In this document: in pieces, positions 11,654-26,773 of the stretch
Layout: each line of letters opens with the position of its first letter
How positions within the stretch are numbered: the first letter of the stretch is position 1
Assembly (NCBI RefSeq): GCF_030294945.1
Contig: NZ_AP018448.1
Location: forward strand, 3,658,001-3,722,000
DNA: 64,000 nucleotides
DNA from: Streptomyces graminofaciens
GTDB taxonomy: Bacteria > Actinomycetota > Actinomycetes > Streptomycetales > Streptomycetaceae
Direction: 5' to 3'
Made by a program: the position numbers and the translations under genes
The notes under the pieces: generated by a model
Seen by the model: only the letters and a program-made list of their open reading frames with translations
What the model was told of the DNA's origin: nothing
The model's database searches: none

Positions 11654-13119
11654 CCGACTGCGGGGGGCGGACGCCAAGGGCTTTCTCGCCCCGGCGCCAC
11701 ATGCACCCGCAGCTCCCCGAACACATGGGACGGCCACCCACGCGCGAACTCGGGCGGCCCACCTCCCGGCGCCACAAGCACAGCCGCCGGCATGCGCTCA
11801 GCACCACGCAGAATCCCCTCACGGGTCACGTTGGCGTTGTTACCGCTGGTGTGCGCGGAGGCGCACCCGGCATAGAACGCGATGGGAATGGCATTGTGCC
11901 CGGTGAGAAGGCACGGCGGCCGCACCCCCAACCGACTCAGCTCCATCACCGTACGGCTCCAGCCATCCCGCACGGCGACGGTCCCCTTGACGGTGTGCGC
12001 CAGCACCACATACTGCACCGACACATGCCCGACCAGCCCGAGCACCACCACCGTCCCAACCACCGGCCGCCAGGCCCCATTCGGCCCGGTCACCAGACAG
12101 ACGAGCGCGTCGCCGACCGGAATCGCGAGCAGCGCGTAGGCGGGCAGCAGGAAGCGCGGCGCAGCGTAGCCGATGAGGAAGAGATACGGGGCGGCGGCCG
12201 ACACGGCGCAAGCCAGCAACGCGAGCGTCGGCGCACCACGACCGGCCCTGATCGCGACAGCCAGCCCCAACCCGGCGAGCACCGGCAGGGCGAACCACCA
12301 CGCCATGACCGCCACGTGTGGCAGATCTCCGGTGCAGGGGCGGCACAAGGTACGTCCCACGAGGCTGCGCAGTTGGTCGTCGACGGCGAAGTTCCAGCCC
12401 CGCCCGCCCTGGATCCGGGAGGCATCGGACAGACGCTGCCCCAGACCGCCGTAGGAGGCATGCGACTCGAACACCCAGGCCCCGGCCCCCGTGCCGAGCC
12501 CCGCCGCCAATGCCACGAACAGCCGAGGGCTCCGCCATCGCCGTACGACCGCCGACAGGACCAGCAGCGGTAGGGTCACCCACACCGCGTCGCCAGGCCG
12601 CATCCAGGCCATCATGGCGGCCCCGGCGGCTACACCCCACAGCGCACCCCGGTCCCCGAGATCGGCCCGGGCCCGCAGGAAGCAACCCACGCAGATCAGG
12701 GCGCCGATCGCGACCCATTAGTTGGGCATGGCTTGCGGGCCGTAGAAGAGAGTCACCCAGAGGGTGGTGAACAGCGCACCCGCTAGGGCGAGGACCCGTA
12801 CCAGGAACAGTCCCCGGCAGGCACGCAGGGCAAGGTACAAGCCCAATCCGGCCAGCAGGGCCAGGTACACGCGCAGCAGCACGGTGGACGACGACCATGC
12901 AGCGACGGGCGCGACCAGCAGCGGGACCCCACGGGCGCGCGGTGCGCTGAAGAAGGCGGCGGGCGCGTGCGGGCTGACCTGGCTGACGTACACCGTCTCG
13001 TCCCACCCGAGCCCCATCTCCGGTGGCACGAGGGCCAATTGGGCCAGCGTGAAGGAGCCGGCCACGAAGAGATGGACTATCCTCCCCGGGACCGACACGA
13101 GGCTCGAAACGTGGGCCAT
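11599..13119 (-). pseudogene. Polytopic membrane protein, glycosyltransferase-like, broken by one in-frame TAA
   Basis: Reading leftward from an ATG at 13117-13119, a hydrophobic protein runs to a TAA at 12718-12720 (AMPN*). The same frame then continues without a gap (WVAIGALICVGCFLRAR) to 11599. Removing that one codon gives about 505 residues with 9-11 membrane segments and an early loop LGWDETVYVSQ like those of GT39/ArnT-type lipid-linked glycosyltransferases. A single base change, for example from TAC or TAT (Tyr), would create the stop. An alternative is that the downstream part restarts at a GTG at 12688-12690. The gene's 5' end is abutted by transposase debris at about 13130, so its promoter may also be lost. 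Confidence 0.7.
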
Positions 13120-13129
13120 ACTCCACCCC

Positions 13130-13955
13130 GGACATATGCATATAACCCACGTCCCCGACGGCGTGGGCTTCGCCACCAGTCCGAGCTCGCCGTCGCCATG
13201 CTCACCCGAGCCCGACAGCTGGGCCTGCGTGCACGCTGGTTCGCCGGCGACGAGGTCTACGGCGGGCGCGAACTGCGCCGCAGTGCTCGCCGGCTTAGTT
13301 TCGACGCCCTGTCGGTCCGCGTCGATCACCAGGTACCACCCCGGGTGGCCGCTTCACCGCGACCACCCTGGCTGCACGGCTGCCCCGGCGGGCGTGGGTG
13401 CGGATGCTCACCGGTCGCGGCCTGAAGGGCAACCGCCACTACGACTGGACCTGGACCGACATCCAGAGCGACGACACCCCCGACACCGAGGACGACGGGA
13501 CATCCGTCCTGGTCGTGCGCCGACACCGCTTCAGGCGAACTCTCCTTCTACCGCTGTCACTCCACCCGACCCGTCACCCTCGTCGGCCTCATACACATCA
13601 TCTGCACCAGATGGCGGGTCGAGGAGGACTTTCAGCTGGCCAAGGGCGCCACCGGACTCGACCAGGGCCAGACGACCTGCTGGAACTCCTGGATGCGCTG
13701 GAGCCTGATCGGCATCCTGGCCGCCGCCGTCCTGGCTGTCACCCGCGCCCGCGCCGCGACGACCGCCACTGCTGTCAGCCTCGTCCCGGTCAGCGCACGC
13801 GAGCTGCTGACCATCCTGCGGGCAACGGCCCTGCCTCCCTCCGCCACGACATCGGCCATGTCCTGAACTGGTCCGCCTGGCGACGCCGTCACCAGGCCAT
13901 CGCGCAAGCCTGCCACCGGCGCTGGAACAACGTCACCGCCGCCACGACCACATGA
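13130..13955 (+). pseudogene. IS701-family transposase remnant with frameshifts
   Basis: Pieces of a DDE transposase appear in order but in different frames: RARWFAGDEVYGG (second-Asp region), GGRFTATTLAARLPRRAW, GLKGNRHYDWTWTDI, then after a shift near 13528 SGELSFYRCHSTRP and RWRVEEDFQLAKGATGLDQ (Glu region), and after another shift near 13840 WSAWRRRHQAIAQACHRRW. The N-terminal third is missing. These motifs match IS701-like transposases of actinomycetes as I know them. At least three frame changes rule out function. No terminal repeats could be defined. The remnant abuts the 5' end of the broken membrane-protein gene. Confidence 0.75.
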
Positions 13956-13969
13956 CACCGCCATGACGA

Positions 13970-14149
13970 TCAAGAACTAGAGCTGCCAGGTCCGAGCGGC
14001 GCTGACTGCGTCGCGTCCTGTCTGCTCACCAGCATGGTTCGGATCCTCGCCCGGGACACCTCGCCTCGGTAATCGATCTGCGCAGCGACCTTACCGTCCA
14101 GCCCCCAGATCTCGGTCTGTCCGGTTGCTGAATCCGGGTAGCCGTCCAT
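13970..14149 (-). CDS. Possible small protein, 59 residues, unrecognised
   Basis: An ATG at 14147-14149 opens a 59-residue frame beginning MDGYPDSATGQTEIWGLDG and ending in four serines before TGA at 13970-13972. Composition (mixed polar residues, one Trp, two Tyr) looks protein-like rather than a GC-rich shadow, but the ribosome binding site is weak and I recognise no family. It may be a fragment of a larger gene destroyed when the mobile elements arrived. The C-terminus overlaps nothing else. Confidence 0.3.
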   Translation of the reverse strand: MDGYPDSATGQTEIWGLDGKVAAQIDYRGEVSRARIRTMLVSRQDATQSAPLGPGSSSS

Positions 14150-14174
14150 GCACCGCTGACCGGATCATTTAAGC

Positions 14175-14201
14175 CAACTTCCGTTTGCATGCCGGAAGTT
14201 G
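14175..14201. promoter_or_regulatory. Inverted repeat CAACTTCCG-N9-CGGAAGTTG
   Basis: Perfect 9-bp arms (14175-14183 and 14193-14201) surround TTTGCATGC, 88 bp upstream of the small secreted-protein start. The region is noticeably richer in A and T than its neighbours. It could be an operator for that gene or the outer part of a former mobile element end. Confidence 0.5.
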
Positions 14202-14288
14202 ATCTATTGCAGGGTAGCTTTGCGAGTAACTCACACCACCGTGAGGGTGGAGATGAAAGAAATGTCTGGAAACGAAAGGCGCCATTTC

Positions 14289-14579
14289 ATGACCAACATG
14301 AGAATGCTGCTTGCAAGAGCCTCCGCCTCATGTCTCGCGACGACCGCGATTGTTGCCGGGACGGTGGTGATGGCGGCTCCGGCGCAAGCCAATGCAAGCG
14401 ACTGCGTGCAGTACCTGACTGATCGAGGCTACCGGATAGGGCCGGATTCCAGGCGAGCATGCAGAGTAGGTGCATCTGGGGACGAAATTATATATTGGTC
14501 GATGTGTCACCAGCTGCTCACTGAAATCGGCGTCAGGAACCGACACGCTCAGCTTGCTTGCGATCTGGCACAAAGCTGA
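14289..14579 (+). CDS. Small secreted protein with four cysteines
   Basis: 96 residues from an ATG at 14289 (AAAGG 9 nt upstream); in-frame ATGs at 14253 and 14262 are possible but would precede the signal peptide with charged residues. The first 34 or so residues are an export signal ending MAAPAQA. The mature part is about 60 residues with four cysteines (SDCVQYL, RRACRVG, WSMCHQ, LACDLAQ), enough for two disulfides. The pattern SDCVxYLxxxGYxxGP resembles a family of small secreted Streptomyces proteins of unknown function. Base composition is less GC-rich than surrounding genes, which suggests transfer. A hairpin at 14601-14626 follows it. Confidence 0.7.
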   Translation: MTNMRMLLARASASCLATTAIVAGTVVMAAPAQANASDCVQYLTDRGYRIGPDSRRACRVGASGDEIIYWSMCHQLLTEIGVRNRHAQLACDLAQS

Positions 14580-14729: not shown

Positions 14730-14849
14730 ATGTCACGCACGGTCGCGCCCAACAACATCAACAACATCCGCCTGAAGCTCAAGCGGTTGACCGACCGCGG
14801 GATCCCGGTCGAGACCGAGCCAGGCTTGTTCACCCAGCCACGGCCATAA
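14730..14849 (+). CDS. 39-residue ORF, possible winged-helix fragment
   Basis: ATG at 14730 behind AGAGGAAGAG starts a 39-residue frame: MSRTVAPNNINNIRLKLKRL, then a stretch ending LFTQPRP before TAA at 14847-14849. The helix-rich wording (RLKLKRLTDRG) resembles the recognition helix and wing of a small DNA-binding protein, of which this would be only the C-terminal piece. Function is doubtful. No gene is seen in the remaining bases to 15266 apart from this. Base composition there stays below the window average until about 15000. Confidence 0.35.
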   Translation: MSRTVAPNNINNIRLKLKRLTDRGIPVETEPGLFTQPRP

Positions 14850-15266
14850 CCGTCCTTCGCCGCCGCGACCTGCCCGCTTGTCCCACACGAAAGGAAGAAT
14901 CGGACATCAGGCCTCATACCGCCCTCTCAACTCTCGCGGCGACGAGAGCCGTTCGTAAGATCATCTCTGGATAGATCAACTCGCAGGAATTAAAGCGAAG
15001 TTGACTCTCCGAAAGGCCCCTGGGTCAGCGTTGCACGAACAGTCGCCCGCGGACCTGCGGCTGAGGTACTGGAGGCCGTGAGACACAGGCCGCAGTCCGC
15101 CAGAGGACGCTCTCGCCGTACAGCAGATCGCGGGGCCGAGTCGTCGCGGAGCTATTCACCCACCGGTCGACACCCACTGGAGCCACGGCGGGCTGGTACA
15201 CGGCGGTCGGTGCTCGGGAGCCATCGGAGCATATGAATGAACGCTGGTGCCAAGGGTTGGCCCTCG

Positions 15267-15591
15267 TCAGCGGTACAGCGCGGGCCTCTCGATCAGCATC
15301 ACCTCGCCCTGGCCGCCCCCGTCTGCGCCCGGATGCCCGCCTCCGCAACGGCTGCCGCCGCGTAGCCGTCCCACCTGCTGGGGCCGGTGATCTCGCCGTG
15401 GCGGGTGGTGTCGTCCCGGGTCTGGCTTCGCGGTCGTACGCGTCGGCGAAGCGGTACAGGTAGCCTTGGACGATGGTGCCGCCCCAGCGACCCGCCATGT
15501 CGGTGGCGAGGCCCTGTTGTTCGCCGACGCGGGCGGTGCCGCGTTCGCAGACCGCCTCGGCCATGACCTGGTAGCCGAAGCCGCAGTTGAC
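15267..15591 (-). pseudogene. 3' part of the Gfo/Idh/MocA dehydrogenase, severed and frameshifted
   Basis: Reading leftward from 15591 the frame gives VNCGFGYQVMAEAVCERG, a typical inner sheet of the C-terminal domain of inositol 2-dehydrogenase-like proteins, then LYRFADAYDREA. A shift near 15420 moves to RHGEITGPSRWDGYAAAAV. Another near 15285 leads to EVMLIERPALYR and TGA at 15267-15269. It joins in frame to the 5' part at 17514 once the inserted element is removed. The two extra frameshifts show it has decayed since it lost function. Confidence 0.8.
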
Positions 15592-15760
15592 TTGAAGTGC
15601 TCTTCCTCGTAATCGAGGGAGATTCCTGCCTACCTTGCGGTGGCGGGCTTGACGCCACAGGGACGCCTGACGACTGCCCTCCCGGCAGCCGGGGTGAGCG
15701 CATGGCCCATCCGGTACAGATGCAAGACGTTCCGGGCTGCGTTCCAGTCTGCATTGCCGG
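15592..15760 (-). ncRNA. Predicted TnpB omega RNA overlapping the tnpB 3' end
   Basis: In IS605-type elements the guide RNA is made from the 3' end of tnpB through the right end, and its guide is whatever DNA flanks the element. On the minus strand this region contains the hairpin CCTCG-ATTA-CGAGG (15605-15618) and ends ...GCACTTCAA at 15592. The next host bases, GTCAACTGCGGCTTCGGCTA, would be the guide. The 5' limit at about 15760 is arbitrary. The RNA is inferred, not observed. Confidence 0.5.
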
Positions 15761-16952
15761 ACCATCCGCAGTCGAGGTTCTTGCACACGAACGTGGCCTG
15801 GTCCTCGCGGCTGCCCGGTGTGGTGAAACCACATGCTGAGCAGCGTAGGGAGGTGCCGGGGGCAGGAACCTTGTGCAGGGCGCCGCCCTGACGGGCGGTC
15901 TTGTACGTCAGCATCGTCACGGTGCGGCCCCATGCCTCTTGGCTGATGGAGCGGTTCAAGCCGGACTTCTGGGCGACGTTCTGGCCGGGTTCCTCGGTGG
16001 TGCCCTTGGCGGACTTGACCATGTTCTTAATGTTGAGCTGTTCGACCACGATGGTGCCGTACTGCGTGGCAATGCTGGTGGTGGTCTTGTGCTGCCAGTC
16101 AACGGCGCGGCGCGTGGCTTTTGCGCGGAGCTGCTTGATCTGGTCGTAGGTGTGCCGCAAGCGGCGGGAGGCCTTCTCCCCGCGCCCTCGGTGCTGCTTA
16201 CGCTGGGCGGCGCGTCGTTCAAGGCCCAGCAGCTTGGCCTTCTCCTGCGGGTTCAGCCACTTGTCACGGTCGGCCGTCCCGTCAAGGAGACGGGACGGGC
16301 GGCCATGGTCGCGGTGGTTGCCGTCCGAGAGGGCGAGGGGCAGGTTCACCCCGGCGTCGATACCGACCTGCGGACCGGTGTGTGGCTCCGGCTCGACTTC
16401 GAGGGCCTGGACGCGGAAGGCGATGTGCCAGCCGAGAGCGTCCTTGACCAGCCGGGCCCCGGTGACACGGTTGCCGGTGGTGGCGTGCTTGCCGACCGGG
16501 AGGTCCTTCGTCCAGCGGAAGCGAACGCGGCCGATCTTGGGGATGTTAACCATTCCCCAGCGGCGGTGCACACGGGTGATGTTCAGGTCCCGGCCCTGCG
16601 GGATGTCCACGGACATCACCGTGCGGAGGCGGGCCTTGAAGTTCGGGGCGCCGGCGCGACCGTCCCAGTAGTTCCGCCAGGCCTGGAAGTACGTCTTCAG
16701 CACGGCCTGCGCGGCTTGGGCAGGGAGCACGCCGAGCCAGTCGATCTCCTTGCGGGCCTGGCGGATCGCGATGTCGGCCACGGCCAGGGAACGCTTGTCC
16801 TTGGGGAGCATCGACCACCAGTCATGCAGGCAGTTCCACATGGTGCGGGCCGCATGCGCCTGGTCGTCCATGAGCCGGATCTGCGCAGGTGCCAGCGCCA
16901 GCCGGGCACGGTGCCCGAACTGCCGCTTCTCCTGAACACGTTCCGTACTCAC
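15630..16952 (-). CDS. tnpB: TnpB RNA-guided nuclease (IS605 OrfB)
   Basis: 440 residues. TnpB proteins use a short RNA from the element's right end to cut DNA next to a transposon-associated motif. Here the RuvC-like site is complete: Asp in VGIDAGV (about residue 197), Glu in IVVEQLNI, and Asp in GNADWNAARN. Between the last two lies a four-Cys zinc ribbon (RCSACG ... CKNLDCGW). The N-terminal half includes the usual WNCLHDWW and NYWDGRAGAPNFKAR wording. The C-terminus reaches to 38 bp from the element end, the region where the guide RNA scaffold should overlap the gene. It runs opposite to tnpA from a shared 23-bp gap. Confidence 0.93.
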   Translation of the reverse strand: MSTERVQEKRQFGHRARLALAPAQIRLMDDQAHAARTMWNCLHDWWSMLPKDKRSLAVADIAIRQARKEIDWLGVLPAQAAQAVLKTYFQAWRNYWDGRAGAPNFKARLRTVMSVDIPQGRDLNITRVHRRWGMVNIPKIGRVRFRWTKDLPVGKHATTGNRVTGARLVKDALGWHIAFRVQALEVEPEPHTGPQVGIDAGVNLPLALSDGNHRDHGRPSRLLDGTADRDKWLNPQEKAKLLGLERRAAQRKQHRGRGEKASRRLRHTYDQIKQLRAKATRRAVDWQHKTTTSIATQYGTIVVEQLNIKNMVKSAKGTTEEPGQNVAQKSGLNRSISQEAWGRTVTMLTYKTARQGGALHKVPAPGTSLRCSACGFTTPGSREDQATFVCKNLDCGWSGNADWNAARNVLHLYRMGHALTPAAGRAVVRRPCGVKPATAR

Positions 16953-16975
16953 ACGATCACTCTACCATTTGGTTC

Positions 16976-17404
16976 ATGTCACCACGATGGAATCCAAATC
17001 CTGATGTTAGAACGGGTCGTCACGTCATTCACAGCCTGCATGTCCACTTGGTGTTCCTCACCAAGTACCGGCAAAAGGCGTTCACAGGCGAGATGCTGAC
17101 CAGGTGCGAGGAGATCATGCGAGAGGTCTGCCAGGACTTCCAGGCCGAGCTGAAGCAGTTCAACGGCGAAGAGGACCACGTCCATCTGCTGGTGCACTAC
17201 CCACCCAAGGTCCAGCTCTCCAAGCTGGTCAACTCCCTGAAGGGTGTCTCCTCCCGGTACCTGAGCAAGGAGTACGACGCACATGTCCGCCGGTATCTGT
17301 GGGGCGGCCATTTCTGGTCCGGCTCGTACTTCGCCGGCAGCTGCGGCGGGGCATCGCTGACCGTCGTACGCCAGTACATCGAAAACCAGCAGCGCCCCGT
17401 GTGA
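16976..17404 (+). CDS. tnpA: TnpA Y1 transposase (IS200/IS605 family)
   Basis: 142 residues, the usual size. The HUH motif is present as DHVHLLV and the catalytic tyrosine as VRQYIENQ near the C-terminus. VHLVFLTKYRQKAF is the conserved N-terminal strand. The enzyme nicks and joins single-stranded ends after recognising subterminal hairpins. The start is the ATG at 16976; the open frame extends upstream into the divergent tnpB and is not used. It shares the 23-bp gap with tnpB, which must hold both promoters or lie between them. Confidence 0.93.
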   Translation: MSPRWNPNPDVRTGRHVIHSLHVHLVFLTKYRQKAFTGEMLTRCEEIMREVCQDFQAELKQFNGEEDHVHLLVHYPPKVQLSKLVNSLKGVSSRYLSKEYDAHVRRYLWGGHFWSGSYFAGSCGGASLTVVRQYIENQQRPV

Positions 17405-17467
17405 TCTAGCTGAGGCCAACAGCGCAGATCCGTGCCCAAAACCAAGGCCAGAGCAGCATCGGGCTGC

Positions 17468-17500
17468 GCTTCACGTCCCCCGTGAACGGGGCACGTGAAG
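17468..17500. other. Subterminal hairpin of the IS605-type element
   Basis: GCTTCACGT at 17468-17476 pairs with ACGTGAAGC at 17492-17500, and CCCCGTGAACGGGG inside can form a second stem. It ends 13 bp before the element boundary at 17513. Such hairpins are the TnpA recognition structures at IS200/IS605 ends. Confidence 0.75.
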
Positions 17501-17513
17501 CGCAAGATCAAAG

Positions 17514-18206
17514 GTAGATCTCGACGTCCACGATCGCCCCGCCGTCCGTCTCGAAGAGGACGAGCTGGGGGTCGGCCAGCCCCTCCGGCGCGTTCTCGGT
17601 CGGCCTCGGGCGCAGCACCGTCACCGCCGTGATCTCCTGGCCGAGCAGCCAGCGGGTCACGTCGATCTCGTGCGCCACGGAGTCGTTGACGAGGTTGGCG
17701 GTGGTGAAGCCGGGCGGGCTTGAGGCGTTGCGGTGCCGGTTGTGCAGCATCAGCGGGCGGCCCAACTGCCCGCTGTCCAGCAGGGCCTTGAGCTTCATGT
17801 ACTCGGCGTCGTAGCGCCGCATGAAGCCGACCTGGACGCGGCGCCGGCCCAGTTGCCGCTCCGCCGCGAGGACCCGCAGGGCGGAGGCCGAGTCGGGGGT
17901 GAGCGGCTTCTCGCACAGGACGGGCAGGTCGTGTGCGAAGGCGGTGAGCAGGGCCGCCTCGTGGGCGGGGCCGGGCGAGGCGATGAGTACGGCGTCCACG
18001 TCGGCCGCGGCCATGGCTGCGGCCGGGTCTGGGTAAGCGGTGCAGCCGTCGATGCCGTCGGCGAGCCGCTCGGCCCGCTCGGTGTCGATGTCCACGACGG
18101 CGGCCACCCGCGCCCCGCTGATGACCTGGTCGAGCCTGCGTACATGGTCCGCGCCCATGCGGCCGGTCCCGATGACGGCGACTCCGAGCGTTCCGCGCTG
18201 CGTCAT
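17514..18206 (-). pseudogene. 5' part of Gfo/Idh/MocA dehydrogenase (inositol 2-dehydrogenase-like), interrupted
   Basis: Starts at an ATG at 18204-18206. A Rossmann fold with [17 protein letters not shown], the CEKPLTPD motif that follows the dinucleotide fold, and the start of the substrate domain ([14 protein letters not shown]) are intact for 231 residues. The frame reaches VDVEIY and then enters the inserted element, stopping at 17508. Family members oxidise myo-inositol or related sugars with NAD; the Lys of EKP and the HEIDVTRW His are retained in this half. It follows the ABC transporter genes in the same direction after 218 bp, which fits uptake followed by oxidation. As interrupted, it should make no active enzyme. 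Confidence 0.88.
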
Positions 18207-18259
18207 GCTGTTCCCCCTTCGGTCCTTGCTGGTCGGTCGGCCATTGCTCCTCGCCGTTC

Positions 18260-18308
18260 GGCCGTCGGGTCATGACGAACGGCCGTCGGTTCACGACGAA
18301 CGGCCGTC
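18260..18308. repeat. 21-bp tandem repeat between ABC ATPase and dehydrogenase
   Basis: GGCCGTCGGGTCATGACGAAC (18260-18280) is followed by a near copy with T and C at two positions (18281-18301) and the first 7 bases of a third. It sits in the 218-bp gap upstream of the dehydrogenase. Each copy contains a TCATGA- or TCACGA-like core. A regulatory or transcript-processing role is possible but unsupported. Confidence 0.7.
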
Positions 18309-18424
18309 CTCATCGCGGACCGGGGTCCGGATGAAGCGGCCGTCATCGTCGTCGGGGCCGTCCGGCGATCGGACGGCCGCGACCCTGCGTCTGCTTCGTC
18401 TACCTCGTCTGCCTGTCCACCGTG

Positions 18425-19375
18425 TCAGGAGGCTTTGTCGGTTGTGGCTGCGACGGGGGCGGTGAGGTCTTCCTCTTCGGGGAGTTCTTCGACGTCCACG
18501 CCGCGTACCTGGGCCAGTTCGTGTTTGAGCGCGGCGAGTTCGGTGCCGCCGGCCATGTGGTTGGTGAGTTCTTCGAGGCTGACCTGGTCGCGGGCGGCGC
18601 TCAGCTCCATCGTGCCCAGGCGCAGGACGCTGAAGTGGTCGCCGACCATGTAGGCGTGGTGGGGGTTGTGGGTGATGAAGATGACGCCGAGGCCGCGGTC
18701 GCGGGCAGCGGCGATGTACTTCAGCACGACACCGGACTGTTTGACGCCGAGGGCGGCGGTGGGTTCGTCGAGGATGAGGACGCGGGCGCCGAAGTGGACG
18801 GCGCGGGCGATGGCGACGCACTGGCGCTGGCCGCCGGAGAGGGTGCCGATGGGCTGGTCGAGGTCGTCCAGGACGATGCCCATGTTGCGCAGTTCGGTGT
18901 CCGCGGTCTTCTTCATCGTCTCGATGTCGAGGCGGCGGACGGGCCAGGGGCCCTTGGTGAGTTCGGAGCCGAGGAAGAAGTTGCGCCACACCGGCATCAG
19001 GGGGACGGTGGCCAGGTCCTGGTAGACGGTGGCGATACCCGAGTCGAGGGCCTCGCGAGGGGTGTTGAAGCGGACCGGGGTGCCGTCGACGAGGAACTCG
19101 CCCTCGGTGTGCTGATGCAGGCCGGAGATGATCTTGATGAGGGTGGACTTGCCGGCGCCGTTGTCACCCAGGACGCAGGTGACCTCGCCGGGGCGGACGC
19201 TCAGGTCCACGCCGTGCAGGGCGCGAATGTTGCCGTACGCCTTGCCCGCGCCCCGCAGTTCGACGACCGGCTTGCCCGAAGCGGGCGCCGCGTCGTTCAC
19301 AGGGTTGGTGTCGTTGCCGGGGCCGGTGTCGTTGCCGGTGGCCGTCTCGGGTGAGGATGCGTTGCTGTCGGTCAT
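18425..19375 (-). CDS. Sugar ABC transporter ATP-binding protein (CUT2, FrcA-like)
   Basis: 316 residues with a single nucleotide-binding domain, unlike the double-domain RbsA type. Walker A is GDNGAGKST, the signature [14 protein letters not shown], Walker [11 protein letters not shown] followed by GVKQSG, and the switch His is in FITHNPHH. The first 32 residues are a Asn/Asp/Thr-rich tail with the repeated wording GNDT. The start is the ATG at 19373-19375, with GGAGG overlapping the permease stop region. It powers import through the permease encoded 8 bp upstream. The substrate is probably inositol or a related polyol from the neighbouring genes. Confidence 0.92.
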
Positions 19376-19383
19376 GGGGCGGT

Positions 19384-20460
19384 TCACCTCCGGGTGGCCT
19401 GGTGGCGGACCCACAAGTTGACGAGGGCGGCGATCAGGAGCATCACGCCGAGGAAGGCCTTGAACCAGTCGGGGTTCCAGTTCGCGTAGACGATGCCCTG
19501 GGAGACCATGCCGAAGATGAAGGCACCGATCACCGGGCCGACCGCCGAGCCGTAGCCGCCGGTCAGCAGACACCCGCCGATCACCGCCGCGATGATGTAC
19601 AGGAACTCGTTGCCCACACCCTCGCCGGACTGCACGGTGTTGAACGAGAACAGCAGGTGCATGCCCACGAACCAGGCACCGGCCCCGACGCCCATGAACA
19701 AGGCGATCTTCGTGAAGTTCACCGGGACACCGACCGCGCGGGCGGAGTCCTTGTTCCCGCCGACGGCGAAGATCCAGTTGCCGAACCTGGTGCGCAGCAG
19801 CAGCCAGGTCGCGATCGCGGCGAACGCCAGCCAGTAGAAGACGGTGACCTTGAAGTCGACGCCGCCGATGGACACTTCGGAGGCGAAGACGCTCTTGGCC
19901 TGGTCGAAGCCGTCCATGTCGCTGATGGAGTCGCTCGCCACGTTGCCGGTGAAGATCTTCGTGACGGCCAGGTTGGAGCCCTGGAGGATCAGGAACGAGC
20001 CCAGGGTGACCAGGAAGCTCGGCAGGCCGGTCTTGATCAGCAGCCAGCCGTTGAACGCGCCGACCGCCAACGACACGATCAGCGCGACGAACACGCCGGT
20101 CCACACGTTCACCGTCAGCTGGAAGCTCAGGATCGCCGCGGTGAGCGCGGAGGTGGTGACCGCGACACCGGCGGACAGGTCGAACTCCCCGCCGATCATC
20201 AGCAGGGCCACCGGGATCGCCATGATGCCCATGACGGAGGCCTGGTAGAGGACCGTCGCCAGCGAGCCTGCCTCACGGAAGGAGGGGGCCACCGAGAAGA
20301 AGAAGACGTACACGCCGATCGCGGCGATGAGCGCGCCGACCTCGGGGCGGGCCAGCAGACGGCGCCAGACGGAGCGCTGCACGGTCCGGCCGTCCTTCTG
20401 CGCGGCGGCCGGCGGAGCCGGCGGCGAGGAGCTCGCCGCCGGTGCCGTTGCTTGGGTCAT
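19384..20460 (-). CDS. Sugar ABC transporter permease (CUT2, FrcC/RbsC-like)
   Basis: 358 residues; about 10 membrane helices after a Pro/Ala-rich 30-residue tail. The permease wording [17 protein letters not shown] and [21 protein letters not shown] (the loop that contacts the ATPase) is typical of BPD_transp_2 proteins. It would form a homodimer in the plasma membrane with the adjacent ATPase. The gap to the solute-binding protein gene is 6 bp, which marks a tight operon in the order binding protein, permease, ATPase. Confidence 0.92.
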
Positions 20461-20466
20461 CTCAGA

Positions 20467-21486
20467 TCACCGGGTGCCCTTCGCGGCGAACTTGGCGATG
20501 GCGTCGACGTTGTCCTTGTCGACGAAGGCGGGGCCGGTGAGCACCGCTTCCTCGCCGCCGCCGCTGTAGTTGCCGTTGTTCTTGTAGAGCCACAGCGAGT
20601 CCACGGCCAGGTAGCCCTGCAGATACGGCTGCTGGTCCACCGCGAACTGGATGTCACCCTTCTTGATCGAGTCGGTCAGCTCCTTGTTCAGGTCGAACGT
20701 GGCGACCTTCGCCTTGCTGCCCGCGTCCCCGACCGACTGGACCGCGGTCAGGGCGTACGGGGCGCCGAGCGCGACGACGTAGTCGATCGCGGTGTCCTGC
20801 TTGAGCTTGGCGGTGATCGTCGCCTTCACGGACGGCATGTCGGTGCCGTTGACGTTGAGGACCTCGGTGTCGCCCTTGAAGGTCTTCTTCACACCGTCGC
20901 AGCGCTGGGTGAGGCCGACGTTGCCCTGCTCCTGCACGACACAGACGGCCTTCTTGGCGCCGACTTCGTTCAGCCTCTTGCCGAACGCCTCGCCCGCCAC
21001 GCTCTCGTCCTGGCCGAAGAAGGACATCAGACCGAGGGACTGCCAGTCGCTCAGACCGGAGTTGAGGCCGACCACGGGGATGCCGGCGGCCTTCGCCTTG
21101 GCCACTACGTCCTTCATGGCGTCCGGCTTGGCGAGGGTGATGGCGATGCCGTCGACCTTCTGGTCGATCGCGTTCTGCACGAGGTTGGCCTGGTTGCCCG
21201 CGTTCGGGTCGGCCGAGTAGACGAGCTTGATGTTGTCCTTGTCGGCCGCCGCCTGGGCGCCCTTGCGGACGATGTCCCAGAAGGTGTCGCCGGGCGCCTG
21301 GTGGGTGACCAGGGCGACGGTCATCCGGGGGGTGTTCGCCTTGCCCGCAGAGGCGGCTGCCCCGCTCTCCTCGGACTCCTTGCCTCCGGAGCTGCTGGAG
21401 CATCCGGCTATCAGCAGAGCGGATGCGGCGGCCACGGCGACCATGGGCGCGATTCTGCGTGAGCGGGGGTGGAACGTGCGGTCCAT
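20467..21486 (-). CDS. Sugar-binding lipoprotein of CUT2 ABC transporter
   Basis: 339 residues. The signal peptide ends in a lipobox LLIAGCSSS (lipidated Cys about residue 29), so the mature protein is anchored outside the membrane. A periplasmic-binding-protein type 1 fold follows: TVALVTHQAPGDTFWDIVRKG at the first strand and VDGIAITLAKPDAM, matching ribose/inositol-type binders. It is the first gene of the leftward transport operon. A leader of about 128 nt, containing the hairpin CCGGAC-N7-GTCCGG (about 21557-21575), separates it from the predicted promoter that overlaps the TGTC-N13-GACA site at 21645. Confidence 0.92.
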   Translation of the reverse strand: MDRTFHPRSRRIAPMVAVAAASALLIAGCSSSSGGKESEESGAAASAGKANTPRMTVALVTHQAPGDTFWDIVRKGAQAAADKDNIKLVYSADPNAGNQANLVQNAIDQKVDGIAITLAKPDAMKDVVAKAKAAGIPVVGLNSGLSDWQSLGLMSFFGQDESVAGEAFGKRLNEVGAKKAVCVVQEQGNVGLTQRCDGVKKTFKGDTEVLNVNGTDMPSVKATITAKLKQDTAIDYVVALGAPYALTAVQSVGDAGSKAKVATFDLNKELTDSIKKGDIQFAVDQQPYLQGYLAVDSLWLYKNNGNYSGGGEEAVLTGPAFVDKDNVDAIAKFAAKGTR

Positions 21487-21816: not shown

Positions 21817-22794
21817 ATGCCCCAGCCCGAGTCCGCGCGCCCCGAGCCTGTCGGCGCCTTCGATCTCATCACCATGGGACGCATCGGCGTCGACCTCTAC
21901 CCCCTGCAGACCGGCGTACCGCTGGCGCGGGTCGAGTCGTTCGGAAAGTTCCTCGGCGGTTCGGCCGCGAACGTCGCGGTGGCGGCCGCCCGGCTCGGCA
22001 ACTCCACCGCCGTGATCACCCGGACCGGCGCCGACCCCTTCGGCAGCTACCTCCACGAGGCCCTGAAGGACTTCGGTGTGGACGACCGCTTCGTCACCCC
22101 CGTCGACGCGTACCCCACACCGATCACTTTCTGCGAGATCTTCCCGCCGGACGACTTCCCGCTCTACTTCTACCGGCGGCCCAAGGCCCCCGACCTGGAG
22201 ATCCACACCGACGAGCTGGACTTCTTCGCCATCCGCGCGGCCCGCATCTTCTGGATCACCGGCACCGGCCTGAGCGAGGAGCCGAGCCGCTCGGCCACAC
22301 TCGCCGCGCTCAAGGCCCGCGACAGGTCCGGCATCACCGTCTTCGACCTCGACTGGCGTCCGATGTTCTGGGCGGACCCCGAGAGCGCCCGTCCGTACTA
22401 CGCCGAGGCCCTCCGGCACGCCACCGTCGCGGTCGGCAACGTGGACGAGTGCGAGGTGGCCACGGGCGTACGCGAACCGATGGCCTGCGCCGAGGCGCTG
22501 CTGGCGGCCGGGGTGGAACTGGCCGTGGTCAAACAGGGTCCCAAGGGTGTGCTCGCCGTCCACCGGGACGGCACGGTCGCCGAGGTGCCGCCGGTGCCGG
22601 TGGAGGTCGTCAACGGCCTCGGCGCGGGTGACGCGTTCGGGGGCTCCCTCTGCCACGGGCTGCTCCGCGACTGGCCCCTGGAACAGACCATGCGGTACGC
22701 CAACGCCGCCGGGGCCATAGTCGCCTCCCGCCTGGCCTGCTCCTCGGCGATGCCGACGGAGGCAGAGGTCGACTCCCTGCTCCACAGCGGCTGA
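21817..22794 (+). CDS. iolC: 5-dehydro-2-deoxygluconokinase (PfkB family)
   Basis: 325 residues; phosphorylates 5-dehydro-2-deoxy-gluconate in myo-inositol breakdown. The ribokinase-fold motifs are present: GKFLGGSAANVAVAAARLG near the N-terminus and NGLGAGDAFGGSLCHGLL with the catalytic Asp. The wording FDLDWRPMFW and YFYRRPKAPDLEI is typical of IolC rather than of fructokinases. The ATG at 21817 has GAGGAG upstream. It is the first rightward gene of the inositol locus, divergent from the ABC operon. Confidence 0.9.
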   Translation: MPQPESARPEPVGAFDLITMGRIGVDLYPLQTGVPLARVESFGKFLGGSAANVAVAAARLGNSTAVITRTGADPFGSYLHEALKDFGVDDRFVTPVDAYPTPITFCEIFPPDDFPLYFYRRPKAPDLEIHTDELDFFAIRAARIFWITGTGLSEEPSRSATLAALKARDRSGITVFDLDWRPMFWADPESARPYYAEALRHATVAVGNVDECEVATGVREPMACAEALLAAGVELAVVKQGPKGVLAVHRDGTVAEVPPVPVEVVNGLGAGDAFGGSLCHGLLRDWPLEQTMRYANAAGAIVASRLACSSAMPTEAEVDSLLHSG

Positions 22795-22985
22795 CCATCC
22801 CGCGCGAGCAACCACGACGAACCCACACCCGCCAACCCACCCAGGCCACCCGAGCTCTCCCGCGCGGCAGACGGGGTCGAAGGGGCAGCCGCCCCTGGGG
22901 GATGGGACGGGTAGGGGCGGCGGGGGCGAAAAACGACACCGCACCACCCACACGCGCCCGCGACGAAGACCACAGGAGCCCCCAC

Positions 22986-23864
22986 ATGCCCACCACCATC
23001 CCCGAGCTCCCCACACTCCGCGCCCACCACCCGGAGGCCATCCCCGAGGCGGCAGCCCGCCGCACCCGCCGCACCCTCATCGGCGACACCGGCCGCCTGA
23101 TGATCGTCGCCGCCGACCACCCCGCCCGCGGCGCCCTCGGCGTCGGCGACCACCGCCTCGCGATGGCCAACCGGGCCGACCTCCTCGAACGCCTCTGCAT
23201 CGCCCTCTCCCGCCCCGGTGTCGACGGCGTCCTCGCCACCGCCGACATCCTCGAGGACCTTCTGCTCCTCGGCGTCCTGGAGAACAAGGTCGTCATGGGC
23301 TCCCTCAACCGCGGCGGCCTCGCCGGCGCCTCCTTCGAGATGGACGACCGCTTCACCGGCCACCGCCCCGAGGACATCGAACGCCTCCGCTTCGACGCCG
23401 GAAAACTGCTCGTCCGCATCGACTACTCCGACCCCGGCTCCCTGACCACCCTGTACTCCACGGCCAGAGCCGTCGACGACATGGCGGCACGCCGGCTGCC
23501 GCTGTTCGTCGAGCCGTTTCTCTCCAGCCGCGTCGACGGCAAGGTCCGCAACGACCTGAGCCCCGAGGCCGTCACCCGTTCCATCGCCATCGCCTCCGGC
23601 CTCGGCGGCACCTCCGCCTACACCTGGCTGAAACTGCCGGTCACCGACGACCCCGACGCCATGGCCGAGGTCATGGAGACCTCGACCCTGCCCGCCGTCC
23701 TGCTCGGTGGCGAGGTCGGCAAGGACCAGGACGGCGCCTACGAGAAGTGGCGCAAGGCGCTGCGACTGCCCACCGTCCAGGGCCTGGTCGTGGGCCGCTC
23801 CCTGCTCTACCCGGCCGACGGCAGTGTGGAGACGGCGGTGGACACGGCGGTCGGCCTGCTGTGA
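22986..23864 (+). CDS. Cgl0158-family aldolase-like (beta/alpha)8 protein
   Basis: 292 residues from the ATG at 22986, with AGGAG 8 nt upstream; the open frame from 22902 adds only filler. The wording IVAADHPARGALGVGD and GVLATADILEDLLLL is that of a barrel family found beside iolC and iolD in actinobacteria, often labelled deoxyribose-phosphate aldolase or Cgl0158 family. It probably cleaves the phosphorylated IolC product to a triose phosphate and malonic semialdehyde, replacing IolJ. The 191-bp gap before it contains the hairpin AGGGGC-N4-GCCCCT. Two TGTC-N2-GACA sites follow its stop codon. Confidence 0.82.
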   Translation: MPTTIPELPTLRAHHPEAIPEAAARRTRRTLIGDTGRLMIVAADHPARGALGVGDHRLAMANRADLLERLCIALSRPGVDGVLATADILEDLLLLGVLENKVVMGSLNRGGLAGASFEMDDRFTGHRPEDIERLRFDAGKLLVRIDYSDPGSLTTLYSTARAVDDMAARRLPLFVEPFLSSRVDGKVRNDLSPEAVTRSIAIASGLGGTSAYTWLKLPVTDDPDAMAEVMETSTLPAVLLGGEVGKDQDGAYEKWRKALRLPTVQGLVVGRSLLYPADGSVETAVDTAVGLL

Positions 23865-23873
23865 TCCGGGGCA

Positions 23874-23906
23874 TGTCGTGACAAGGTTCCGGGGTATGTC
23901 TTGACA
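23874..23906. promoter_or_regulatory. Two TGTC-N2-GACA sites upstream of iolD
   Basis: TGTCGTGACA (23874-23883) and TGTCTTGACA (23897-23906) lie in a direct repeat of about 20 bp (CGGGGyATGTCkTGACAAGG) with centres 23 bp apart, about two helical turns. The second contains TTGACA, a possible -35 hexamer. Their half-sites match those at 21645 and 21688. They begin 10 bp after the aldolase stop and probably make iolD separately regulated. Confidence 0.6.
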
Positions 23907-24049
23907 AGGCGGAAAAGCACCTTTCCCGCACCCGCCTCTCCTCTTCCCTCCCACCCCACGAAATCCCAGACCCCCGATCCCCCAGAACCTCCAGAACTCC
24001 CCGAACCCCAAACACAACGAACCCCTTCTCACCACCCCACGAGGTCCCG

Positions 24050-25924
24050 ATGAGCCCCTCCACCCACCGCCTGACCGTTGCCCAGGCGCTGGTGCGGTTC
24101 CTGTCAGCCCAGTACACAGAGCGCGACGGCGTACGCCATCGGCTGATCGCCGGGACCTGGGGGATCTTCGGCCACGGCAACGTGGCGGGCATCGGCCAGG
24201 CCCTGCTGGAGGCCGGCGAGGAGACGATGCCGTTCCACCAGGGCCGCAACGAGCAGTCCATGGTGCACGCGGCCGTCGGCCACGCCCGGCAGCTGAACCG
24301 CCTCTCCGCGCAGGCGGTCACCACCTCCATCGGCCCCGGCGCCACCAACCTGGTCACGGGCGCCGCGCTGGCCACGATCAACCGCCTGCCCGTACTCCTC
24401 CTCCCGGGCGACTACTTCGCGACCCGCACCGCCGACCCGCTGCTCCAGCAGCTGGAGCACCCCACCGAGGCGGATGTGTCGGTCAATGACACCCTGCGCC
24501 CGGTCTCCCGCTACTTCGACCGGATCACCCGCCCGGAGGCGCTGATCCCGGCCGCCCTGAACGCCATGCGGGTCCTCGCCGACCCGGTCGAGACCGGCGC
24601 CGTCACCCTCGCCCTGCCGCAGGACGTGCAGGCGGAGGCGTACGACTGGCCGGAGGAGTTCTTCGCCGACCGCGTGTGGAACGTACGCCGGCCCGCCCCC
24701 GACCCGGTCGAGCTGGCCGAGGCCGTACGAGCCGTCCGCAGCGCCGGGAGGCCGCTGATCGTCGCGGGCGGTGGCGTCCACCACAGCGAGGCCGAGGAGG
24801 CGCTGAAGTCGCTGGTCGACGCCACCGGCATCCCGGTCGCCTCCACCCAGGCGGGCAAGGGATCGCTGCGGTACGACCACCCGGCCGACCTCGGCGGCAT
24901 CGGCCACACCGGCACCGCGGTCTGCGACGACCTCGCCCGCACCGCGGACCTGATCATCGGCGTCGGCACCCGCTACACCGACTTCACCACCGCCTCCAAC
25001 ACCCTCTTCCAGGCCCCCGACGTCCGCTTCCTCAACCTCAACATCGCCGCGTTCGACGCCCACAAGCTGGCGGCCCGGACGGTGGTGTGCGACGCGCGAG
25101 CGGGCCTGGAAGCGCTCAGGGACGCACTCACCGATCACCGCGTGAGCGAGTCGTACGAGGCCGAGTACCGCGTCGGCAAGGAGCGCTGGGAGCGGATCGT
25201 CGACGCCGCCTACACCCCGGCCGACGAGAACGCCGTACCGACGCAGACCCAGGTGCTGGGCGCGCTGGACGTGGTCGTGGGCGACGAGGACGTGGTCATC
25301 AACGCGGCCGGTTCGCTCCCCGGGGATCTGCACAAGCTGTGGCGGGCCCGCAGCCCCCGCCAGTACCACCTGGAGTACGGCTACTCCTGCATGGGCTACG
25401 AGATCCCGGCCGCGATCGGCGTCCAGCAGGCCGCGCCCGGCACGGCGGTCTGGTCGCTGGTCGGCGACGGCACGTATCTGATGATGCCGACGGAGATCGT
25501 GACGGCCGTCCAGGAGGGCCTGCCCGTCAACCTGGTCCTGATCCAGAACCACGGGTACGCCTCCATCGGCGGCCTGTCCGAGTCGGTGGGCGCCGAGCGC
25601 TTCGGCACCGCCTACCGCTACCGCGCCGCCGACGGCACCTTCACCGGTGCCCCGCTCCCGGTGGACCTCGCCGCGAACGCCGCGAGCCTCGGCATGGACG
25701 TCATCCGCGCCAAGACCGTACGGGAGCTGCGCGACGCCCTGGCCGCGGCCCGCGCCTCGGACCGCCCGACCTGCGTGTACATCGAGACGGACCCGACGCC
25801 GACGGCTCCCCCGGCCGAGGCCTGGTGGGACGTGCCGGTAGCCGAGACCGCCTCCCGCCCGGCAGCCGTCGAAGCCCGCGAGACGTACGAGCGGGAGGTG
25901 GCCGGGCAGCGCCGCCACCTCTGA
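24050..25924 (+). CDS. iolD: 3D-(3,5/4)-trihydroxycyclohexane-1,2-dione hydrolase
   Basis: 624 residues, a thiamine-diphosphate enzyme that opens the cyclohexane ring of the inositol intermediate. The ThDP-activating Glu lies in GRNEQSMVHAAVG, and the cofactor motif GDGTYLMMPTEIVTA ending in QNHGYASIGG binds the diphosphate through Mg. Length and wording are typical of IolD. The ATG at 24050 follows GAGG after 5 nt. Inositol dehydratase (IolE) and isomerase (IolB) genes are not in this window, so they must be elsewhere. Together with the broken dehydrogenase, the pathway cannot run from this locus alone. Confidence 0.92.
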   Translation: MSPSTHRLTVAQALVRFLSAQYTERDGVRHRLIAGTWGIFGHGNVAGIGQALLEAGEETMPFHQGRNEQSMVHAAVGHARQLNRLSAQAVTTSIGPGATNLVTGAALATINRLPVLLLPGDYFATRTADPLLQQLEHPTEADVSVNDTLRPVSRYFDRITRPEALIPAALNAMRVLADPVETGAVTLALPQDVQAEAYDWPEEFFADRVWNVRRPAPDPVELAEAVRAVRSAGRPLIVAGGGVHHSEAEEALKSLVDATGIPVASTQAGKGSLRYDHPADLGGIGHTGTAVCDDLARTADLIIGVGTRYTDFTTASNTLFQAPDVRFLNLNIAAFDAHKLAARTVVCDARAGLEALRDALTDHRVSESYEAEYRVGKERWERIVDAAYTPADENAVPTQTQVLGALDVVVGDEDVVINAAGSLPGDLHKLWRARSPRQYHLEYGYSCMGYEIPAAIGVQQAAPGTAVWSLVGDGTYLMMPTEIVTAVQEGLPVNLVLIQNHGYASIGGLSESVGAERFGTAYRYRAADGTFTGAPLPVDLAANAASLGMDVIRAKTVRELRDALAAARASDRPTCVYIETDPTPTAPPAEAWWDVPVAETASRPAAVEARETYEREVAGQRRHL

Positions 25925-25963
25925 CCACCACGGTGGCTCTGGGGCGCTTGTAAGGACAATGCA

Positions 25964-25983
25964 ATGACAGGGGTTCCTGTCAT
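25964..25983. promoter_or_regulatory. Palindrome ATGACAGG-N4-CCTGTCAT before the GntR regulator
   Basis: Perfect 8-bp arms around GGTT, ending 25 bp before the GTG at 26009. Half-sites TGACA and TGTCA match those of the other inositol-locus sites but point outward. TACCCT at 25997-26002 could be a -10 hexamer, which would make the regulator mRNA leaderless and place the palindrome over the -35. Autoregulation is likely. Confidence 0.6.
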
Positions 25984-26008
25984 CCGGACGGACGGATACC
26001 CTCAGAGC

Positions 26009-26773
26009 GTGACGAGCGCGACCGCGGGGAGTACGGAGAGTCTCGACCTCAGCGTCGACCGGAGCAGCCCGGTCCCGCTGTACTACCAGCTTGCCCGGCA
26101 GCTGGAGGCCGCGATCGAGCACGGCGCGCTCGGCCCGGGCAGCCTGCTGGGCAACGAGATCGAGCTGGCGGGCCGCCTGGGCCTGTCCCGCCCGACCGTC
26201 CGCCAGGCCATCCAGTCGCTCGTCGACAAGGGCCTGCTCGTACGGCGCCGGGGCGTGGGCACGCAGGTGGTGCACAGTCAGGTCAAGCGCCCCCTGGAGC
26301 TGAGCAGCCTCTACGACGACCTGGAGGCGGCCGGGCAGCACCCCACGACTCGGGTGCTGTTGAGCGAGGTGCGGTCCGCCTCCGCCGAGGTGGCGGCCGC
26401 CCTGGGCGTCGCGGAGGGCGCCGAGGTGCACCTCATCGAGCGGCTGCGTCTCACGCACGGCCAGCCGGTGGCGTTCCTCGCCAACTACGTCCCGACGGGC
26501 CTGCTGGACCTGGACACCGAGCGGCTGGAGGCGACCGGCCTGTACCGCCTGCTGCGCAGCGCCGGGATCACCCTGCACAGCGCCCGTCAGACGGTCGGCG
26601 CCCGGGTCGCCACGGCCGAGGAGGCCGAGCGCCTCGAAGAGCCGGAGGGCGCCGCCGTACTCACGATGCAGCGCACGGCGTACGACGACACCGGCCGCCC
26701 GGTCGAGTACGGCAGCCACATCTACCGGGCCTCGCGCTACTCCTTCGACTTCCAGTTGCTCGTCCGCAACTGA
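26009..26773 (+). CDS. GntR-family regulator, HutC/FarR subfamily with UTRA domain
   Basis: 254 residues from a GTG at 26009; an ATG at 25964 is also in frame but lies inside the palindrome. The winged helix-turn-helix at residues 20-80 starts PVPLYYQLARQLEAAIE and contains LAGRLGLSRPTVRQAIQSLV. The UTRA effector domain (about residues 95-250) starts after RPLELSSLYDDLEAAG. It follows iolD by 84 bp. The TGTC/GACA sites at 21645, 21688, 23874, 23897 and 25964 all lie beside genes of this locus, so it is the best candidate for the inositol repressor. Confidence 0.88.
   Translation: MTSATAGSTESLDLSVDRSSPVPLYYQLARQLEAAIEHGALGPGSLLGNEIELAGRLGLSRPTVRQAIQSLVDKGLLVRRRGVGTQVVHSQVKRPLELSSLYDDLEAAGQHPTTRVLLSEVRSASAEVAAALGVAEGAEVHLIERLRLTHGQPVAFLANYVPTGLLDLDTERLEATGLYRLLRSAGITLHSARQTVGARVATAEEAERLEEPEGAAVLTMQRTAYDDTGRPVEYGSHIYRASRYSFDFQLLVRN

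Follow-up and report, generated by a model that had tools for sequence, protein, structure and literature searches.

How did an insertion element come to lie within an inositol-dehydrogenase-type gene of Streptomyces graminofaciens, and what has become of the element and the gene? The window analyzed here is the whole stretch of 64,000 nucleotides from assembly GCF_030294945.1 (contig NZ_AP018448.1, positions 3,658,001 to 3,722,000), and all coordinates below count from its first nucleotide. On its minus strand, it carries an interrupted iolG-like dehydrogenase gene (15267..18206), which is split by an IS200/IS605 element of 1922 bp (15592..17513, minus strand; left end 17513, right end 15592). 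We give a probability of about 85% to the following reading: the element was inserted at a TCTAC target in the iolG-like gene, its left end was rewritten, the element is probably locked in place, and the loss of the gene is tolerated. As far as comparison of sequences goes, the element is of a known kind, belonging to an IS200/IS605 family that is widespread in Streptomyces, and the insertion itself is ordinary. Four points are new: a TCTAC target read from many copies, a left end that has been altered, decay confined to one side of the gene, and a corrected view of the operon around it.

Where does the element begin and end? When its flanks were joined, the reading frame passed the junction without a gap in 17/17 homologues of a first alignment, from which the own-genome paralogues (L067–L069, with matches below 700 nt) were left out. 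The junction was likewise gap-free in 45/45 homologues of a second set, 7 of which showed no difference from the joined window across 30 nt. This second set comprised 44 homologues from other genomes and the own-genome paralogue (L022 of the first set was not reused), and its members are called intact or open where their stop-free frame spans at least 345 codons. An earlier sequence-only reading had placed the ends at 15592 and 17513, exact to the base and with no target duplication, and had proposed the comparison of the spliced sequence with homologues; these alignments and the independent copies of the element described below bear it out. The interrupted codons are ATC TAC (Ile-Tyr), and the element, presumably inserted as a single strand, lies directly 3' of the TCTAC within them (17514..17518, minus strand), which adjoins its left end. 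The absence of a target duplication is, judging from the paired copies, usual for this element family.

Is TCTAC peculiar to this insertion? Among 29 loci with whole-element relatives (L036–L064), TCTAC precedes the left end in all 20 with a recognizable left-end tip, 6 of the 26 aligned left ends having no such tip and being excluded from this count. The right cleavage site of the window copy is TCAA (15592..15595, minus strand), and the right ends of the relatives read TTCAA in 24/28, TTCAC in two, and TCCAA in one, the site being lost in the last. A left-end pattern that included AGTG but no flanking sequence was scanned over the species genomes and found at least 80 loci; among those listed (L080–L159), 76/80 were labelled Streptomyces, and TCTAC was present in 70/80 and one base off in 8 of the other 10. 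The guide AGTG is conserved in these loci by construction, and L109, which comes from a planctomycete contig, was probably matched by chance. Furthermore, copies whose two ends were paired by a script had TCTAC before the left end in 31/33 cases and a repeat of TCTAC after the right end in 0/33, and 32/33 were 1872–1947 bp long; the script demanded CTTCAA at the right end and a span of 300–2700 bp, and its 33/33 TTCAA is thus by construction. The base directly after the target is G in the window copy, and G in 15, A in 11, T in 5, and C in 2 of the 33 paired copies.

These results indicate that the target of the family is fixed as TCTAC, known here from many independent copies, which makes the insertion a clean case. 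TCTAC is also a ready prediction of the transposon-associated motif (TAM) for a large TnpB family in Streptomyces. A literature search, with subscription papers and ISfinder outside its scope, found no paper joining TCTAC, IS605, and TnpB, and none combining four of the terms TnpB, TAM, Actinomycet, IS605, and CTAC; TCTAC may be known in those sources. Only some alleles of the iolG-like gene offer this target: at the insertion site, the 45 homologues carry TCTAC in 15 cases, TCTTC in 22, TCAAC in 5, and TGTTC in 3.

What was left of the host gene? As now read, its 5' fragment (17508..18206, minus strand) has 232 codons, with the host part at 17514–18206; the host codons end at 231, and the last codon (Leu) and the stop come from the left end of the element. 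The fragment matches Pfam GFO_IDH_MocA and the start of the C-terminal domain, and its best PDB match is 3mz0/3nt2 (E 3.5e-57 over residues 7–232), which we take to be Bacillus subtilis IolG, an inositol 2-dehydrogenase/D-chiro-inositol dehydrogenase. Models of this enzyme type are also its best matches among protein families. The window gene differs in being interrupted after codon 231. The closest NCBIfam model, NF052679, gave 219 bits, below its cutoff of 540; an intact relative (330 bits) and the own-genome paralogue (326 bits) also fell short of it, and both are under the cutoffs of both iolG models. Because of these scores, we use the name iolG-like only. The Pfam, NCBIfam, and structure matches agree with the sequence-only reading, which had assigned the gene to the Gfo/Idh/MocA family, inositol-dehydrogenase type.

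The 3' remnant (15267..15591, minus strand) retains the ancestral stop at 15267–15269 and has two single-base deletions, one near 15427 and one within 15305–15320. Both frameshifts, which the sequence-only reading had also noted, appear as single-base gaps against 7/7 homologues aligned and as frame breaks against five proteins searched with tblastn, and by these alignments they are real in this assembly. When 14800–18500 was scanned for promoters and terminators, nothing promoter-like appeared, and the single terminator-like site was fewer than the 1.5 that shuffled sequences have on average.

The element itself carries two genes, tnpA (16976..17404, plus strand), for a Y1 HUH transposase of 142 aa, and tnpB (15630..16952, minus strand), for a 440-aa member of the RNA-guided endonuclease family. 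The tnpA product matches Pfam Y1_Tnp (PF01797, E 7e-46) and NCBIfam NF033573 (154 bits, cutoff 55), with the HVH motif and the C-terminal Tyr visible in its sequence, while the tnpB product matches Pfam OrfB_IS605 and Cas12f1-like_TNB as well as NCBIfam NF040570 (194 bits, cutoff 100). The IS605 type that had been assigned to the element is confirmed by these matches. The two genes are divergent, as in IS605 of Helicobacter pylori, and both reading frames are open.

The own genome, a single contig of 11.6 Mb, holds one full copy of the element, and the four other places listed there are partial copies or the element's own palindrome. Matches of some kind were found in 213 of 392 genus genomes, own included, these 392 having been taken from a larger group. 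The top-scoring relative outside the genome (L036) reaches 93% identity across about 1.9 kb, and another, shorter match reaches 94% across 1.4 kb. L036 is itself decayed: GGTG stands in place of AGTG, and roughly 36 bp are gone from its right extremity, together with the right end. Two further IS200-type tnpA relatives lie in the own genome (L002 and L003), their proteins being 67% and 56% identical, respectively (L003 over residues 28–141), and L002 has a short tnpB-like stretch on its opposite strand.

How would such an element recognize its ends? At the right end (15602..15625, minus strand), the sequence, the right-end alignment, and the fold point to a guide GAAT (15622–15625) beside a hairpin with one mismatch (15602–15621), and GAAT would pair with the TCAA of the cleavage site. 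The predicted hairpin is weak (−5.3 kcal/mol, z −1.7; 12/200 shuffles fold as well), and the right ends of the relatives were compared by alignment. At the left end of the relatives, AGTG would pair with the CTAC of the target. Whole-element relatives have AGTG in 16/17 cases and GGTG in 1/17; the guide could vary freely only in the 29 loci, and the 17 are those that matched a left-end expression also requiring NCTAC. By eye, three more tips were recognized among the 29 loci, with GGTG in L053 and AGTG in L060 and L063.

At its left end, the window copy departs from these relatives. A subterminal hairpin is present in the window (17465..17504, minus strand) and in the relatives, with differing shapes in the predicted folds. 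In the folded relatives, a short outer stem encloses an 8-bp inner hairpin, and the AGTG or GGTG lies in a bulge, whereas the window copy has a 12-bp and a 5-bp stem separated by a single mismatch. Its left arm now matches the right one after a rewriting of sequence, and the right arm has changed too, giving a near-perfect 17-bp stem. The predicted folding energy is −23.6 kcal/mol. A set of 54 distinct left ends, chosen to carry AGTG or GGTG and to be preceded by TCTA, averages −10.8 kcal/mol, and the lowest value among them is −15.3. In the window fold, the guide position is base-paired, as it is in 2/54 of these left ends. Judged from these folds and alignments, the altered left end is a new and unusual feature of this copy, and its simplest origin would be a template switch within the imperfect palindrome, by which the left arm came to match the right one.

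Could this change have stopped the element from moving? As the AGTG guide is removed or buried in the 17-bp stem, the element may be immobile: TnpA is likely no longer able to excise this copy, and the element would be locked in place, although both frames are open. If this is correct, a hairpin-based element can immobilize itself in a simple way, by perfecting its own palindrome. We rejected the view of a simply active element, against which the altered left-end hairpin argues.

Several observations weigh against this picture. With the inner stem alone, CGTG would stand at the guide position, and some guide function may remain. The related tnpA at L002 might act in trans. The right-end hairpin is weak, and an alteration there might be just as important as the one at the left. 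IS608 prefers a C directly after its target (PMC5934647), which this element family does not, and recognition may differ in detail. Finally, the left-end change is seen in one assembly only; palindromes in G+C-rich DNA are typical sites of assembly errors, and so are places of single-base deletions in such DNA.

Could the altered left end and the two frameshifts then be assembly or base-calling errors, the real element being ordinary and mobile? There is a single assembly, and both palindromes and G+C-rich runs are error-prone. The left-end change, however, is a structured rewriting on both arms and not an error of base count in a run, and indel errors do not explain the unique substitutions in the 3' part of the host gene, which number 3, 7, and 3 by codon position in 104 codons. 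We consider this explanation improbable.

Could the element be domesticated, immobile but with tnpB retained for an RNA-guided role against the empty iolG-like allele? In alignments of 58 of 68 tnpB matches and 71 of 84 tnpA matches, from which the shorter ones were dropped, the TnpB of the window has 1/169 strongly conserved columns changed (30/58 family members have more), and TnpA has 3/62 changed (5/71 have more). The claim of the sequence-only reading that both genes look functional thus stands for tnpB and mostly for tnpA, but it overlooks the change in the left-end hairpin, a structure that TnpA requires in IS608. A well-conserved tnpB in an element with an altered left end would fit domestication; however, only one genome is concerned, and a recently frozen element would look alike, and we regard this idea as very unlikely.

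A guide for the TnpB can be predicted. A putative guide segment of 16 nt for the right-end element RNA (reRNA) lies at 15576..15591 (minus strand), where it adjoins the right end and matches the empty allele. An Rfam search of 15300–17700 with E up to 1 gave no match among 4227 families, and no known reRNA family backs the right end. A search of the own genome for TCTAC followed by the first 15 nt of the guide found no site with fewer than three mismatches. The guide gave no sign of self-targeting: eight genome sites had three mismatches, one of them the element's own right junction, compared with seven for a reversed control.

How long has the host gene been broken? The sequence-only reading considered it dead for some time, which fits the part downstream of the insertion but not the upstream part. 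Compared with the 45 homologues, the window has 4/224 unique residues upstream and 11/104 downstream of the insertion (Fisher p 8.7e-4), the largest such difference of the 46 sequences; the other 45 sequences pooled have 172/10027 (5') and 75/4680 (3'). None of the 74 invariant positions of the 5' part is changed, and its nonsynonymous (dN) and synonymous (dS) divergence from seven intact homologues resembles the values among those homologues. In the 3' part, dN against the same seven is 0.21–0.29 and exceeds their own mean of 0.15. As the 5' part is without decay, the gene as a whole has not been drifting for long, and uniform decay of the gene was rejected on the counts of unique residues. 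These data do not tell apart two explanations, an earlier release of the 3' end and a constraint that still acts on the 5' fragment.

The first of these possibilities is a recent insertion into a gene whose 3' third had already lost constraint through a frameshift near codon 287. The absence of decay in the 5' part would be expected, and codons 232–286, downstream of the insertion, keep 16/16 invariant positions, whereas 3/14 are changed in codons 287–337. The best change point for unique residues falls at codon 259, with a range of 220–289 within 2 log units. However, codons 232–286 already have 4/55 unique residues, above the pooled background of 1.6–1.7%, and a boundary at codon 286 lies 2.3 log units below the best one, whereas the junction (codon 231) lies only 1.0 below. 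We give earlier damage to the 3' end somewhat less than an even chance.

Alternatively, the insertion came first, and selection continues to maintain an expressed, truncated 5' fragment of 232 codons, while the separate 3' fragment drifts. Had the 5' part changed at the rate of the 3' part, it should hold about 24 unique residues, but it holds 4 (binomial p 3e-7), although this test treats as known a rate that comes from 11 sites; by permutation, the 3' excess has a p of 0.002. The ordinary dN and dS values of the 5' part would also fit, as would the location of Lys97, Asp172, and His176, presumably the catalytic residues of B. subtilis IolG, all of which fall inside the 5' part in the alignment with the PDB match. 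On the other hand, roughly a third of the protein is missing from the fragment, and with it 30 positions that are invariant in the 45 homologues. Selection would hardly be expected to preserve part of a dehydrogenase where the genome has several other copies. We consider selection on the fragment unlikely. Less probable still is a combined scenario. Here the left-end hairpin, an imperfect palindrome and as such prone to template switching, was perfected by one such switch, which froze the element, and the insertion thus locked in place made the first two thirds of the iolG-like gene into a stable gene of 232 codons, still selected, while the rest drifts.

Under the favored reading, the element inserted next to TCTAC and was locked there, and the gene, which then stopped after 232 codons, was dispensable. 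Could the cell afford to lose it? The own genome holds inositol genes at four other places. Two of them, at 8.353–8.360 Mb and 6.157–6.170 Mb, contain iolE, iolC, a Cgl0159-like gene, iolB, iolD, and iolA, the latter with an iolG-like gene (a 47% homologue) and a transporter as well; a further iol gene set lies at 0.843–0.852 Mb; and an open iolG-like gene of 77% identity stands beside a binding protein at 0.926 Mb. These three sets and the separate gene (L185, L186, L187, and L160) amount to marked redundancy. Because several other inositol gene sets and dehydrogenases are present, the loss of this iolG-like copy should be tolerated; that the strain has other dehydrogenases available had been anticipated by the sequence-only reading, as one of two possibilities, and the 77% paralogue and the 47% homologue at 6.16 Mb agree with this.

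The same reading had held the surrounding pathway operon to be otherwise whole, which proved incorrect. By Pfam and synteny, the genes of a sugar ABC transporter lie upstream of the iolG-like gene on the minus strand, in the order ATPase (18425–19327), permease (19384–20460), and binding protein (20467–21486). They are followed, on the plus strand, by a block (21817..26773) assigned by synteny to iolC (21817–22794), a Cgl0159-like gene (22902–23864), iolD (24050–25924), and a GntR-type regulator (25964–26773). The products of iolC and iolD score above the cutoffs of NCBIfam TIGR04382 and TIGR04377, and these two genes thus share a cluster with the iolG-like gene. Six other genes of the cluster have no internal stops. 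In 9 of 12 fetched stretches from relatives (L161, L162, L188, L189, and L222–L226), the iolG-like gene, iolE, ATPase, permease, and binding protein stand on one side, and the other side carries iolC, the Cgl0159-like gene, iolB, and iolD. Six of these stretches are long enough to show the next gene, which is iolA. All five of the closest relatives have iolC, iolE, iolB, and iolD in the same cluster, with iolA in the fetched stretch of four, once partial. In the window, however, iolE, iolB, and iolA are absent from the corresponding places (18207–18424, 23865–24049, and 25925–25963), and tblastn found no remnants of them in the window; an intact operon was accordingly rejected. Three stretches (L163, L190, and L191) differ from the common order, and as L190 also lacks iolE at this place, the absence of iolE in the window need not be recent decay.

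Two proteins of the cluster stand out in these comparisons. The window permease is 94% identical to the permease of one own-genome iol set (L186) and 96% identical, over 237 fetched residues, to that of another (L187), whereas it is only 72–75% identical to its nine syntenic orthologues and departs from 37/269 columns that are otherwise invariant, compared with no more than 4 in any of the others. A likely explanation is recombination between paralogous clusters. The Cgl0159-like protein has 12/220 otherwise invariant columns changed, compared with at most 7 in the nine orthologues. To the left of the iolG-like gene, the window contains overlapping open frames at 12967–13955 that, by eye, resemble broken transposase pieces, and Pfam named none of the four frames searched there (12718–14579).

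How does the element compare with well-known members of its kind? ISDra2 of Deinococcus radiodurans likewise has tnpA and tnpB and a pentanucleotide target. Its right end adjoins tnpB, and the flanking DNA lies where the guide segment would be (PMC8612924), the position in which we place the putative guide here. It differs in its target, TTGAT instead of TCTAC, and in its gene arrangement, as tnpA and tnpB overlap in ISDra2 and are divergent in the window element (PMC8612924).

IS608 of Helicobacter pylori shares with the window element a Y1 TnpA, a TnpB, and insertion 3' of a short target without duplication. In IS608, each end hairpin has a short guide at its base, and pairing with these guides selects the target and cleavage sites: AAAG at the left end recognizes the TTAC target in this way, and GAAT at the right end recognizes TCAA, with A+16 paired to T−3 and A+17 to T−4 (PMC5934647). 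The window element has the same GAAT and TCAA at its right end, and the left guide AGTG and the target CTAC of its relatives fit the geometry of AAAG and TTAC. By analogy, the IS608 geometry for CTAC would call for A, G, any base, and G, the last pair being our extension; the relatives have AGTG. IS608 differs in its target of TTAC, compared with TCTAC here, and in its preference for C after the target, which this element family lacks. The window copy differs further in its altered left end, where the AGTG guide of its own relatives is no longer found.

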